Shown piece by piece: positions 1,817 through 5,949 of a DNA stretch of 5,949 nt; positions within the stretch are counted from its first letter, which is position 1; the number at the start of each line of letters is the position of its first letter. Source of the DNA: Nitrospinota bacterium (lineage in GTDB: Bacteria > Nitrospinota > Nitrospinia > JACRGO01); contig JACRGO010000203.1 in assembly GCA_016212295.1 (NCBI GenBank), positions 1-5,949 of the forward strand, written 5' to 3'. The translations under genes were made by a program, and so were the position numbers. The notes under the pieces were generated by a model. The model did not search any database. It was not told the DNA's origin and saw nothing but the letters and a program-made list of their open reading frames with translations.

Positions 1817-2281
1817 TCAAGACCACTGAAGCCCGTTTGAACACGCCTCTTCCAAGAAGGTCTTGAAAAACGGATATTCCTTGTCCTTGGCGCCTTGGAT
1901 AAGGGCCAATGCCCGCATGTGCTGGGAATTTCTTTTGTCGCAGATATTTTGAAACACCTGCTCGCCTGTCAAATAACCGTCCCCGGTTAAAACCGATATC
2001 TTTTTGATCCTGCCCAGCAAGGCCCTGATGGTTTGAAAGATTTCAGCGGCCTTTTTGTTTGCCTTTTGCTGATAAAAAGGAAGGCCGGCGCTTTTTAAGA
2101 ATCTGTATGCGTTAAAATAAGTATTGATTTTAAAAATAGCGTCAAGGATGGAATTTTTCATATCGATCATTTCCACTCCGGTCCTGTATTTAAGCAGATT
2201 CGAATCCAGTTCTTCGCAATCGCCGTCCAGAATGACCATATCCGCGGTTTCCTTGCATACCTGGGGAACTTTAGCCAGCAT
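1817..2281 (-). CDS. hypothetical protein, 154 aa, mostly helical
   Basis: I do not recognise this protein. It is supported as a real gene by a good ribosome binding site (AGGAG, 6 nt before the ATG), by its 154-codon length in a moderately AT-rich region, and by a composition unlike a shadow frame. It has no signal peptide or obvious membrane segment. Residues about 38-95 look like two amphipathic helices rich in Lys, Phe, Tyr and Ile, with the segment YFNAYRFLKSAGLPFYQQ. Another helical stretch follows at about 118-150, containing HMRALALIQGAKDKEYPFF. Acidic residues cluster near the N-terminus (DGDCEELD, 19-26). Four cysteines are scattered and do not form a metal motif. It is convergent with smpB and transcribed in the same direction as tex upstream, but a 360-bp gap separates them, so it probably has its own promoter. 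A soluble, cytoplasmic, lineage-restricted protein is the best description. Confidence 0.75.
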   Translation of the reverse strand: MLAKVPQVCKETADMVILDGDCEELDSNLLKYRTGVEMIDMKNSILDAIFKINTYFNAYRFLKSAGLPFYQQKANKKAAEIFQTIRALLGRIKKISVLTGDGYLTGEQVFQNICDKRNSQHMRALALIQGAKDKEYPFFKTFLEEACSNGLQWS

Positions 2282-2357: not shown

Positions 2358-2525
2358 TTCTAATGCCAAAGCAGAAACAAACGGCCAAATTCCCTGTCAC
2401 ATGGAGAAAATAAAGCCCAAGCTCAACAGAGCCCGCTAAATTACCCCGATCTTTAATAAACCCTCCTCCAAAAAAAGAATTTTTTTCCTGACGCCAAGGG
2501 AAAATTTTTCCTGCTTATCATCTGT

Positions 2526-2554
2526 ACTCCTCGACTTGCCACTCGTTACTTCTC
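2526..2554. repeat. degenerate heptamer tandem repeat (ACT-initial units)
   Basis: Four consecutive units begin with ACT at 2526 (8 bp), 2534, 2541 and 2548 (7 bp each); examples are ACTTGCC and ACTCGTT. The 7-bp period is shared with the array at 2584-2639 just to the right, but the unit differs. Confidence 0.5.
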
Positions 2555-2583
2555 GGAACAAAGTGATTTGTCAGATTGCAAAT

Positions 2584-2639
2584 GCCGCATGCATCATGTA
2601 TCCTGCATCCTTTATCTTGCTCCCTGTCCCCTGCCCCCT
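2584..2639. repeat. degenerate heptamer tandem repeat, 8 units, abutting the tex stop codon
   Basis: Eight consecutive 7-bp units with no indels fill 56 bp and end 3 bp from the tex stop codon. Units drift from left to right: GCATCAT at 2591, GTATCCT at 2598, GCATCCT at 2605, then GTCCCCT at 2626 and GCCCCCT at 2633. Most units start with G and end in CCT, so the array becomes progressively C-rich towards tex. No open frame or hairpin explains it. Confidence 0.65.
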
Positions 2640-2642
2640 TCC

Positions 2643-4940
2643 TTACCTAACCCTAAACCCCGCCTTCTCCCAGGCGCTGACGTCCTTAAGCTTATCACTA
2701 ACCGGCTTGGGGCTTTTTTCAGGCCGGGGCCGGGCCGCCGGCGCCGGCTTCTTCCCGCCCTCTCCGCCTTTCGGGTCTGCCTCCTTTATTGACAGGGAAA
2801 CGCGGTTTCTTCCCTTGTCCACTGAAAGGACCTTTACCTTCACCACCTGCCCCACCTTCACCACGTCCGCCGGGTCCTTCACATACCGGTTCGCCAGATG
2901 GCTTATGTGGACCAGACCGTCCTGGTGCACGCCGACGTCCACAAAGGCGCCGAAGGCGGTGACATTGGTTACTGTACCTTGCAAGATCAGCCCATCCTTG
3001 AGGTCGTCGATCTTGGTGATGTCCTCCCGGAACACCGCTGCCTGGAATTCCTTTCTGGGATCACGGCCCGGCTTTTTCAGTTCCTCTATTATGTCGGTAA
3101 GGGTCGGGAGGCCCACTTGGTCCGTTATATAACGCTTGAGGTCTATCGTTTCCAACAAGGACGCATTAGCCGCAAGCTGCTCTACGGTCGCGGACAAGTC
3201 CCTGGCCATGGATTCCACCAGACCGTATCTCTCCGGATGGACCCCGGTGTTGTCCAGGGGAAATTCCCCGGCGCGGATACGGAGAAATCCGGCGGCCTGC
3301 TCGTATGCCTTTGGTCCGAAACGGGGGACCTTAAGCAGTGCCTGGCGCGAGGGAAAGGGACCGTTAGCATCACGGAAATGGACAATTGCCTTTGCCAGGG
3401 CGTCGCTGACCCCGGCCACGTATGACAGCAGGGCGTAGGACGCAGTGTTCAGCTCCACGCCCACGTAATTAACGCACGACTCCACCACGGAGTCCAGGCC
3501 CTTTTTCAGTAAATTCTGGTTCACGTCGTGCTGATACTGCCCGACGCCGATGCTCTTTGGATCGATCTTCACAAGCTCCGCCAGCGGGTCCTGCGAGCGC
3601 CGCGCGATTGAGATGGCGCCCCGCACGGTAAGATCCAGGTCCGGGAACTCCTCCCTTGCAATGGGTGAGGCGGAATAGACGCTGGCCCCTGCCTCGTTCA
3701 CCATCAGCGTCAAGACCTGCCGCCCGGCCTCGCGCAGCGTCTCGCGCGCGAATTGCTCCATCTCGCGCCCGGCTGTCCCGTTGCCTATGGCTATAAGCTC
3801 GATGGAATGCCGGTCCAGCAGGCGCAGCAGTTCCTTCTTCGCCTTTTCCTTTTGTCCATCCCCGCCCGTGTGCGGGTATATGGTCACGTGCTCCAGGAAA
3901 CGCCCTGTTTCATCAACCGCGGCCAATTTGGAACCGGTGCGGAGTCCGGGGTCGATCCCAAGCGTCCGCTTGCTTCCAGCGGGCGGTTGCAGCAATAAAT
4001 TCTTCAGATTTTCGGAAAAGACCCTGATGGCGGTTTCATCAGCGCTTTTTTTGGAGTCCAGCCGCACCTCCACCGCGATGGAAGGGGCAAGGAGTCTCTT
4101 GTAGGAATCTTCCGCCACCTTTTCCAGGAGCGATTCAAAAATGCTCTTCCCGAGAATCAGACGTCCCTTCAATCCATCCAGAATTTCCTCTTCCGGCGCG
4201 TCTATGGAAAGGACAAGGACCTCCTCATTCTCCCCTCGGCGCATGGCGAGCATGCGATGGGAAGGGATTTCCCTGACCGGTTCCTTGTAATCGTAATACA
4301 TCTGGAACTTCGTGGCTTCTCCCTCCTTGCCTGAAGCCACCTTGGTCCGGAAAATCCCCTTTTCCTGGGTCAGACGCCTCGCAAAGGCCCGGACGTCGGC
4401 GTCCTCGCTCAACCGCTCCGCCAGGATGTAGCAGGCCCCTTCCAAGGCGGCCGCCTCGTCAGGGACCTCCTTTTCCGGGTTGACGTAGGGAAGGGCCGCC
4501 TCTTCAGGAGTCCCGGACCTTAATTCCTGGGCCGCCATGAGGTCCGCCAGCGGCTCAAGGCCCCGCTCCCTGGCTATTGTGGCCTTTGTGCGGCGCTTGG
4601 GTTTAAACGGTAGGTACAGGTCCTCCAGTTCCGTTTTCTTGCGGACCGCCTCCACTCTGGCCTTTAGTTCAGGGGTGAGCTTCCCCTGCTCCTCAACTGA
4701 TTTCAAAACAGTGGCCTTGCGCTCCTGCAATTCCTGAAAATAGGCCAGGAGTTCTTCGATGTTCCGGACTTGCACCTCGTCCAGTTCCCCTGTCTGCTCC
4801 TTCCGGTAGCGGGCGATGAACGGAACGGTCCCGCCATCCAGAAGCAGGGCCGCTGTGTTTTGGACCTGGAAGGGCTTGAGCCCTGCCTCCTCCACTATGT
4901 AAACGAGAATTCGGGGTAGTTGCTCTTCAGAGACCGCCAT
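2643..4940 (-). CDS. tex: RNA-binding transcription accessory protein Tex
   Basis: Tex is a cytoplasmic nucleic-acid-binding protein, related to eukaryotic Spt6, that associates with the transcription machinery; its exact bacterial role is not settled. The 765 residues are full length. In order: helical N-terminal Tex region (about 1-320, with PFIARYRKEQTGELDE at 40-55 and DLYLPFKPKRRTKA at about 107-120), YqgF/RNase H-like domain (TLGIDPGLRTG at 326-336, GNGTAGREME at 386-395, VNEAGASVYSAS at 414-425), the conserved SIGVGQYQHDVNQ (463-475), tandem helix-hairpin-helix region (about 496-555), and an S1 RNA-binding domain (about 651-719, GTVTNVTAFGAFVDVG). The tail beyond S1 is a Lys/Pro/Gly-rich linker ending in a short basic segment (AWEKAGFRVR). 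I chose ATG 4940 because GAGGA lies 8 nt upstream. The alternative TTG at 4955 would place that same GAGG inside the coding region. It is a single-gene transcription unit by spacing. Confidence 0.97.
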   Translation of the reverse strand: MAVSEEQLPRILVYIVEEAGLKPFQVQNTAALLLDGGTVPFIARYRKEQTGELDEVQVRNIEELLAYFQELQERKATVLKSVEEQGKLTPELKARVEAVRKKTELEDLYLPFKPKRRTKATIARERGLEPLADLMAAQELRSGTPEEAALPYVNPEKEVPDEAAALEGACYILAERLSEDADVRAFARRLTQEKGIFRTKVASGKEGEATKFQMYYDYKEPVREIPSHRMLAMRRGENEEVLVLSIDAPEEEILDGLKGRLILGKSIFESLLEKVAEDSYKRLLAPSIAVEVRLDSKKSADETAIRVFSENLKNLLLQPPAGSKRTLGIDPGLRTGSKLAAVDETGRFLEHVTIYPHTGGDGQKEKAKKELLRLLDRHSIELIAIGNGTAGREMEQFARETLREAGRQVLTLMVNEAGASVYSASPIAREEFPDLDLTVRGAISIARRSQDPLAELVKIDPKSIGVGQYQHDVNQNLLKKGLDSVVESCVNYVGVELNTASYALLSYVAGVSDALAKAIVHFRDANGPFPSRQALLKVPRFGPKAYEQAAGFLRIRAGEFPLDNTGVHPERYGLVESMARDLSATVEQLAANASLLETIDLKRYITDQVGLPTLTDIIEELKKPGRDPRKEFQAAVFREDITKIDDLKDGLILQGTVTNVTAFGAFVDVGVHQDGLVHISHLANRYVKDPADVVKVGQVVKVKVLSVDKGRNRVSLSIKEADPKGGEGGKKPAPAARPRPEKSPKPVSDKLKDVSAWEKAGFRVR

Positions 4941-5018: not shown

Positions 5019-5221
5019 CCACTTTTTCCCGGCTTTTCCTGATAACGAATATGCAAAACTCGGCATGGCCGCGCTGTGGGAACCACACGGCAACGGATAC
5101 CAACGCCGGGCTGGCATGGCGGACGACCGAAGGTGGCGCAATTACCTGAAAGGCGGAGGTGGACAGATGCGAGGCGGACCTGCAATTAACCATATCGAAA
5201 TAGAATGCGCATAAAAATTCC

Positions 5222-5238
5222 CCGCCTTGGAGAGGCGG
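5222..5238 (-). repeat. CCGCCT/AGGCGG hairpin with nearby T-run
   Basis: A perfect 6-bp GC-rich stem (5222-5227 with 5233-5238) has a 5-nt loop. Read on the minus strand it is followed after a GGAA-like spacer by TTTTT. It resembles the dispersed intergenic hairpins that create false PPLQGG-type ORFs in many genomes. It could act as a weak terminator, but no minus-strand gene needs it, since the hicB terminator lies upstream. Confidence 0.4.
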
Positions 5239-5262
5239 CGCGAACGAACTGCTAGCCAACGC

Positions 5263-5314: not shown

Positions 5315-5352
5315 AAAAAAAAGCCTGCTGGTAAGCGTCTGGCTAAGCAGGC
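5315..5352 (-). terminator. rho-independent terminator of hicB
   Basis: On the minus strand, GCCTGCT (5346-5352) pairs perfectly with AGCAGGC (5323-5329) across a 16-nt loop. The stem is followed immediately by eight T residues (5315-5322). It begins 11 nt after the hicB stop codon, so it ends the hicA-hicB transcript. Confidence 0.85.
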
Positions 5353-5363
5353 GGTTAGGTGTC

Positions 5364-5582
5364 TTATGCTGCCTGGTAAATTAAAGGGCGGAATGTCGGT
5401 TTTGGAATAGCTTTTCCGCTTTTATTTGCTGTTTCCAGCCATGTTTTTTTGGCTTTTAAAACCTCTTCGAGCGCTGCCTTGGGGGTGGAGCCAAATGCTG
5501 AACAATATTTCAGATCAGGAATATCGGCTATATAGCCTTCGTCTTCTTCGCTGTAAAAAATGTTAATATGATAATCTTTCAC
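5364..5582 (-). CDS. hicB: HicB-family antitoxin (short form), orphaned
   Basis: Antitoxin of a type II HicAB toxin-antitoxin pair; HicB proteins bind and block the HicA mRNA interferase. The 72-residue sequence is a complete short HicB: an N-terminal strand, FYSEEDEGYIADIPDL (residues about 9-24), the conserved YCSAFGSTPKAALEEV helix region (26-41), and a C-terminal KPIPKP-like end (GKAIPKPTFRP). It consists of the HicB RNase H-like fold only, with no DNA-binding domain at the C-terminus. The start is GTG at 5582, with GGAGG 7 nt upstream. That GTG shares its first G with the TAG stop of the hicA remnant (TAGTG), the normal coupled arrangement. A strong terminator follows 11 nt after the stop. 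Because the adjacent toxin gene is broken, this is an antitoxin without a cognate toxin here. The family is clear; whether it still has a function is unknown. Confidence 0.9.
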   Translation of the reverse strand: MKDYHINIFYSEEDEGYIADIPDLKYCSAFGSTPKAALEEVLKAKKTWLETANKSGKAIPKPTFRPLIYQAA

Positions 5583-5770
5583 TATTTTTCCTCCATTTGA
5601 AGGTTATACTTCTCTATAAGTTTCAGTAGTTGCCTGATTTGATACGGTTTGGCCCTTCCTTCAATTCAGCCGAGCCTAAAACCGAATGCTACCGCACAGG
5701 ACCGGGCTTCTTTAAACCGGATATTTTTCGATCCGGAAAGCAATTTTTTGAACAATTTTTGCTTGTTCAC
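5582..5770 (-). pseudogene. hicA: hicA toxin pseudogene (internal deletion plus in-frame TGA)
   Basis: Read from GTG 5770 in one frame, 62 codons precede the TAG that overlaps the hicB start. The first part reads NKQKLFKKLLSGSKNIRF and, near codons 28-33, AFGFRL. After a TGA at codon 35 (5666-5668) the same frame continues with EGRAKPYQIRQLLKLIEKYN and ends MEEK. These are the N-terminal and C-terminal motifs of the HicA family that partners short HicB. In intact members, roughly 20-25 residues with the GSHH motif (the catalytic His of the mRNA interferase) lie between them. Here that segment is absent and the two parts meet at AFGFRL-G-stop-IEGRAKPYQ. The product is therefore both truncated and lacking its catalytic residue. 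A TAA four codons before the GTG bounds the frame on the left. No good Shine-Dalgarno sequence is visible. Family assignment comes from remembered motifs, not a search. Confidence 0.8.
5590..5594 (-). promoter_or_regulatory. ribosome binding site of hicB
   Basis: GGAGG on the minus strand, 7 nt before the GTG start at 5582. It lies inside the last codons of the hicA remnant and supports the GTG start rather than an internal ATG. Confidence 0.8.
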
Positions 5771-5813
5771 TGTGTTTTCTTATTATTTCAATTTCAGGTT
5801 CTTATTTCATGCC

Positions 5814-5849
5814 CGTTAGCCAGTAGCTAACGCAACACTTACTACTGGC
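5814..5849. repeat. two overlapping, mutually exclusive hairpins
   Basis: CGTTAGCcagtaGCTAACG (5814-5832) is a perfect 7-bp stem with a 5-nt loop. GCCAGTAG (5819-5826) can instead pair perfectly with CTACTGGC (5842-5849), 8 bp around a 15-nt loop. The shared bases mean only one can form at a time. They lie between the hicA remnant (44 bp from its start codon) and the possible gene starting at 5897, so they may belong to either leader, or be an operator dyad for the old hicAB promoter. Confidence 0.5.
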
Positions 5850-5896
5850 GAAAGGTGACGTCTTCATGAATGCCTATTGAATGGGAGTAGAATATC

Positions 5897-5949
5897 GTGT
5901 CAAAAAAGGATAATCAAGTAAAACCGTCATTCAGAGACAGAGCTCCAGT
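5897..5949 (+). CDS. possible start of a gene cut by the window edge
   Basis: A GTG start with GGGAG (5883-5887) 9 nt upstream opens a frame that remains open for 17 codons to the window end, beginning SKKDNQVKPSFRDRAP. The Lys-rich, hydrophilic beginning is typical of many cytoplasmic proteins and the other two frames close early (TGA at 5878-5880, TAA at 5911-5913). Too little is present to name it. It would be divergent from hicAB, with the alternative hairpins in between. Confidence 0.4.
   Translation, partial: MSKKDNQVKPSFRDRAP

Follow-up and report, generated by a model that had tools for sequence, protein, structure and literature searches.

Probable decay of a Class 1 hicAB toxin-antitoxin module: a hicA remnant upstream of an intact hicB in a Nitrospinota contig

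Results

We identified a hicA gene reduced to a remnant directly upstream of an intact hicB gene in a 5,949-nt stretch of DNA (hereafter the window), which makes up the whole of contig C164. The genome bin to which it belongs has 237 contigs, 3.74 Mb in total, and is 90.5% complete. HicA is an mRNA-cleaving toxin and hicB encodes the antitoxin. We hold with high confidence that the locus is a decayed Class 1 hicAB module, in which hicA was destroyed by a nonsense mutation and a 63-nt deletion while hicB stayed intact and, over most of the period after two genomic copies of the module diverged, under purifying selection. The other of these copies, on contig C42 of this genome (positions 2457-2806, minus strand), was used for comparison.

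The hicA remnant

Translation of the minus strand from 5770 to 5582 gives VNKQKLFKKLLSGSKNIRFKEARSCAVAFGFRLG, a stop, IEGRAKPYQIRQLLKLIEKYNLQMEEK and a second stop; the two ends of a HicA protein thus stand in one frame (Table 1), as a sequence-only reading of this DNA had proposed. A HicA profile built from eight intact relatives was searched against 212 six-frame segments of the window and against 200 shuffled windows. It picked exactly two of the 212 segments, which correspond to the two halves of the remnant (33.4 bits, E 3e-10, and 36.7 bits, E 3e-11), and the top score among the shuffled windows was 7.5 bits. Two members of the profile have irregular starts, L040 being without the usual first residues and L037 without ATG, GTG or TTG at the expected start. 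Pfam and NCBIfam returned no match to either half, which we attribute to the shortness of the pieces and to the deletion of the best-conserved part. While intact relatives reach 34-46 bits against PF07927, with all four relative HicA proteins tested exceeding its cut-off, the window hicA does not match this dsRBD-like domain as a whole in Pfam. Both halves are nonetheless homologous to HicA, in profile order and in frame, and the window hicA is a relic derived from the PF07927 family, not a working member of it.

Alignment with the C42 copy shows a gap of exactly 21 codons (63 nt) in the window, bounded by GAATTGA and AGGAAGG, which confirms and sizes the loss of the central, GSHH-containing part that had been read from the sequence. 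In alignment with intact relatives, the window passes straight from FGFRLG*I (asterisk, stop) to EGRAKPYQIRQ, the GSHH motif and the segment downstream of it being gone, and the G-S-H motif that holds the catalytic histidine falls within the deleted 21 codons. Imperfect ATTGA/ATTAA matches flank the deleted segment in the copy that retains the middle and would suit a short-repeat deletion. The TGA at codon 35 is present as described earlier; it adjoins the deletion junction but was not created by the deletion, being a separate mutation of a codon that reads CGA in the C42 copy. An altered genetic code was considered for the in-frame TGA codons and rejected, as these stand at a conserved Gly in C42 and at an Arg in the window, and the alr and smpB genes of the window end in TGA.

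Table 1. Features of the hicAB locus, its surroundings and related sites in the same genome
Feature	Positions	Strand	Evidence or remark
hicA remnant, N-terminal part, 34 codons, GTG start, ends at TGA	5669..5770	-	translation and profile, 33.4 bits, profile positions 2-33
nonsense TGA, codon 35	5666..5668	-	CGA (Arg) at the same codon in the C42 copy
junction of 63-nt in-frame deletion (21 codons including GSHH)	5660..5661	-	comparison with the C42 copy
hicA remnant, C-terminal part (IEGRAKPYQIRQLLKLIEKYNLQMEEK)	5585..5665	-	36.7 bits, profile positions 58-82
native hicA stop TAG	5584-5582	-	overlaps the hicB GTG (5582) by one base
altered first-helix segment	window 5681-5710; C42 2678-2707 (approximate)		
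hicB, intact, 72-aa antitoxin, GTG start	5364..5582	-	Pfam (sub-cut-off), identity to relatives, structure model
hicB ribosome-binding site, GGAGG	5590..5594	-	7 nt before the GTG; sequence
probable intrinsic terminator 3' of hicB	5315..5353	-	GCCTGCT...AGCAGGC then eight T; folds as 7-bp outer stem, z -1.5
promoter-like site of hicAB, ATGAAA-17-AATAAT	5782..5810	-	TTGAAA-17-AATAAT in the C42 copy
end of multi-copy element, most likely an insertion sequence (CCCGTTAGCC...)	5812..5949	+	14 genomic matches, mostly at contig ends
further copies of this element, same genome	C235, C168, C167, C191, C163, C10, C189, C169, C44, C120, C38, C190		

The intact hicB

The hicB product matches two Pfam families, UPF0150 (PF21748, E 1.2e-4) and HicB_lk_antitox (PF15919, E 1.7e-4), both under the curated cut-offs, and is 61-74% identical to the HicB of seven intact relatives. 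Its matches are to HicB-type domains only, a DNA-binding domain being absent. The 1-nt overlap with hicA and the length of 72 aa (range 67-97) are also those of Class 1, and the ancestor is placed in this class by its gene order (hicA-hicB) together with a small HicB that has no DNA-binding domain. An AlphaFold2 model of HicB (nine sequences, pLDDT 85) has a beta-beta-beta-alpha core in agreement with the partial RNase H fold of HicB (beta-beta-beta-alpha-beta), although the C-terminal end is of low confidence and the last strand is not seen in the model. A Foldseek search with this model placed HicB chains at the top (probability 1.00, TM 0.71-0.79, E only ~1e-3), and the closest solved structures are the antitoxins 4p78, 6u0i, 6hpb and 6g26 as well as Thermus TTHA0281 (2dsy).

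Judged from its sequence, the putatively orphan hicB is probably still functional. Its own GGAGG makes it translatable without the upstream gene, and coupling is not needed. The sequence-only reading had stated that coupling with hicA persisted; the one-base TAGTG overlap does remain, but ribosomes that start at hicA would halt at the TGA, ~84 nt upstream of hicB. The promoter-like site of the module is weak evidence, since about one to two such sites are expected by chance per scanned stretch.

A second, differently broken copy

The C42 locus is 87-95% identical to the window hicAB in three blocks. Its hicA retains the middle (GRIDASHHIYERPDIPEIVNFQSIKGKAKPY), with ASHH instead of GSHH, and carries a TGA at codon 13; a 76-nt deletion has taken the 3' end of hicA together with the first part of hicB, and a further 89 nt are deleted inside hicB. 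Common to both copies is an altered first HicA helix (EA..CA.AFGF, compared with EFV.LVEAFGF and variants in the eight intact relatives), and hicA may therefore have been impaired already before the copies diverged. In this 90.5%-complete bin, the broken C42 copy is the sole close relative of the window hicAB, and the other HicA homologues are distant. Six of these lie on C199, C40, C128, C148, C224 and C179, and a HicB-like frame adjoins at least two of the six.

Intact relatives and distribution

We searched 84,980 genomes with a query of 51 residues, the open stretch in the C42 copy, and found eight loci, in Desulfobacteraceae, Desulfotignum, Leptolyngbyaceae, Richelia, Coleofasciculus, Chloroflexi, Acidobacteriota and Peptococcaceae bins. 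All eight encode a HicA with GSHH (~82-90 aa) followed by a HicB of 70-80 aa at a distance of -4 to +1 nt. The inactivation of the toxin by internal deletion upstream of an intact hicB, as first read from the sequence, gains support from these intact relatives and from the differently broken C42 copy.

Among the other genomes examined from the class or phylum, no close relative of the window hicAB was found. In a genome of the same genus (G001), Tex is 82% identical and no hicAB lies beside tex. Plasmid collections held one distant HicB (Thiolapillus plasmid, 43.5%) and phage collections none. Within the class of this organism, an open HicA-like frame still adjoins 11 of the 14 hicB-like loci examined, which suggests that decay is not the rule there.

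Selection on hicB and hicA

We compared substitutions across 39 shared hicB codons and 36 hicA codons of one sequence pair, the window and C42. Over these codons hicB shows nine synonymous and no nonsynonymous changes, which departs from neutrality at every transition bias tried (p < 2e-5), whereas hicA shows seven synonymous and nine nonsynonymous changes, including one stop per copy, and is not clearly different from neutral (p 0.04-0.17 by the transition bias assumed). The contrast between the genes (9:0 versus 7:9; Fisher p 0.008) indicates that hicB was constrained and hicA weakly constrained or unconstrained, and that selection lasted longer on hicB than on hicA. Identity to the intact relatives follows the same direction: the window HicA ends reach 49-61% and HicB 61-75%, a gap wider than in most pairs of intact relatives.

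With dS near 0.4-0.5 between them, the two copies are, by this estimate, old. As hicA is not clearly different from neutral, the relaxation of constraint on it may extend over much of the divergence, and the counts of nine nonsynonymous and seven synonymous changes leave the earlier suggestion of recent decay unestablished. Constraint on hicB nearly throughout in both lineages implies that the hicB of C42 broke late.

A repeated element at the promoter side

The end of a repeated element sits 41 nt upstream of the hicA start and abuts the putative -35 box, with position 5812 two bases beyond it. Nearly all copies of the element begin CCCGTTAGCCAGTAGCTAACG, and its terminus (CCCGTTAGCCAGTAGCTAACGCAACACTTACTACTGGCG...) is identical across 138 nt in many copies that, like most of the 14 genomic matches, stop at contig ends. 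A reading frame within the element opens at ~5898 (VSKKDNQVKPSFRDRAP). From its sequence, the element is most likely an insertion sequence, and it probably broke the assembly at the window edge, where the contig ends. A pattern scan of viral contigs for this element found none. An integron cassette or compact mobile unit, suggested by homology between the copies ending 39 nt upstream of hicA, was rejected, as the upstream end is explained by the element at 5812.

Two other features of the contig were recorded. A 154-aa reading frame (1817-2281, minus strand) with smpB on one side and tex on the other has no match in Pfam, PADLOC or PHROGs. A 58-bp repeat at 5185-5242, which includes CCCCGCCTTGGAGAGGCGGCG, has ~25 genomic copies at 75-91% identity and looks like a REP-type palindromic repeat in its sequence. 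An Rfam search gave no match above chance.

Discussion

With the 63-nt deletion HicA lost its catalytic histidine and the greater part of its central beta-sheet region, and we propose that the remnant would make no toxic RNase and hicA would be non-toxic. HicB would still be translated by means of its own GGAGG and might retain the ability to bind a related HicA. Loss of the toxin may have been tolerable owing to a spare hicB/hicA pair, and hicB may have been held partly by neutralising the HicA of the sister copy, or of an incoming relative, until the sister broke too.

The present standing of hicB is where an alternative carries the most weight. It may be a mere passenger of a dead operon, without present function and simply the last part to decay, a view that we consider plausible while leaning against it. 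In its favour, two deletions have broken the sister hicB on C42, and the degradation of pairs is listed among the origins of orphan antitoxins (PMC7192599). Conversely, the absence of nonsynonymous changes among the nine substitutions in the shared hicB codons, compared with nine of 16 in hicA, speaks for selection on the gene, although such selection could still have ended recently. A stronger claim, that HicB proteins of this family have long been kept by selection without a toxin of their own, either as a standing antidote to sister or incoming HicA or in a role apart from toxin control, seems to us improbable.

That the lesion is an artefact of assembly, with an intact hicA collapsed or two hicAB copies spliced in a metagenome bin, is very unlikely. 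The bin is in 237 contigs, the window spans a contig from end to end with a repeat at its edge, and the pieces missing from the two copies are complementary. However, no exact match of 12 nt or more between the copies spans the junction, the longest shared match (29 nt) lying elsewhere; moreover, the junction flanks bear substitutions specific to each copy, the nonsense codon constitutes a lesion of its own, and the deleted segment is non-repetitive. It is scarcely credible that the 34-residue frame (5770-5666), or the remnant in full, is kept as a small protein with a function such as HicB binding: the frame is open on either side of the TGA and the deleted length is divisible by three, but amino-acid change is elevated, the two copies have their stops at different positions, and no relative has a counterpart.

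Decay of a hicAB module in both copies, with hicB outlasting hicA, remains our preferred reading. To the sequence-only reading the present analysis adds how large the deletion is and what it removed, that the nonsense mutation is separate from it, that a second copy is also broken, that selection differed between the two genes, and that a probable insertion element lies on the promoter side. The window shows how a toxin-antitoxin module dies, its toxin being lost by nonsense mutation and deletion while its antitoxin, held by selection, persists for longer; the two copies in this genome were broken by independent events. Remnants such as this hicA escape standard annotation, such that some antitoxins counted as orphans may conceal the recent loss of a toxin. 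The decay is an ordinary kind of event, and its effect on general understanding is small.

Among known systems, Class 1 hicAB loci have a HicB of 67-97 aa without a DNA-binding domain and overlapping genes in the order hicA-hicB, and are stated not to have been analysed by experiment (PMC10865869). The window shares the gene order, the overlap and the small HicB (72 aa) without a DNA-binding domain, and differs in that its hicA has been disrupted, by a nonsense codon and by the loss of 21 codons. The same source mentions solitary hicB genes and notes that toxin-antitoxin loci are frequently near transposases or IS elements (PMC10865869). Orphan antitoxins are common in Klebsiella, with a median of nine per strain (PMC7192599), and resemble the window in that an intact antitoxin gene has no functional toxin gene as its neighbour; in the window, however, the toxin remnant is still readable and a differently broken second copy gauges selection. 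The toxicity of Burkholderia HicA requires His24 and Gly22 (PMC3969222). The first His of the GSHH of the intact relatives aligns with this catalytic His24, mutated in 4c26, at a weak similarity (E 0.01). The intact relatives of the remnant thus share the G-S-H motif with Burkholderia pseudomallei HicA (4C26, 6G26; PMC3969222), whereas the window remnant is without the segment that holds it.
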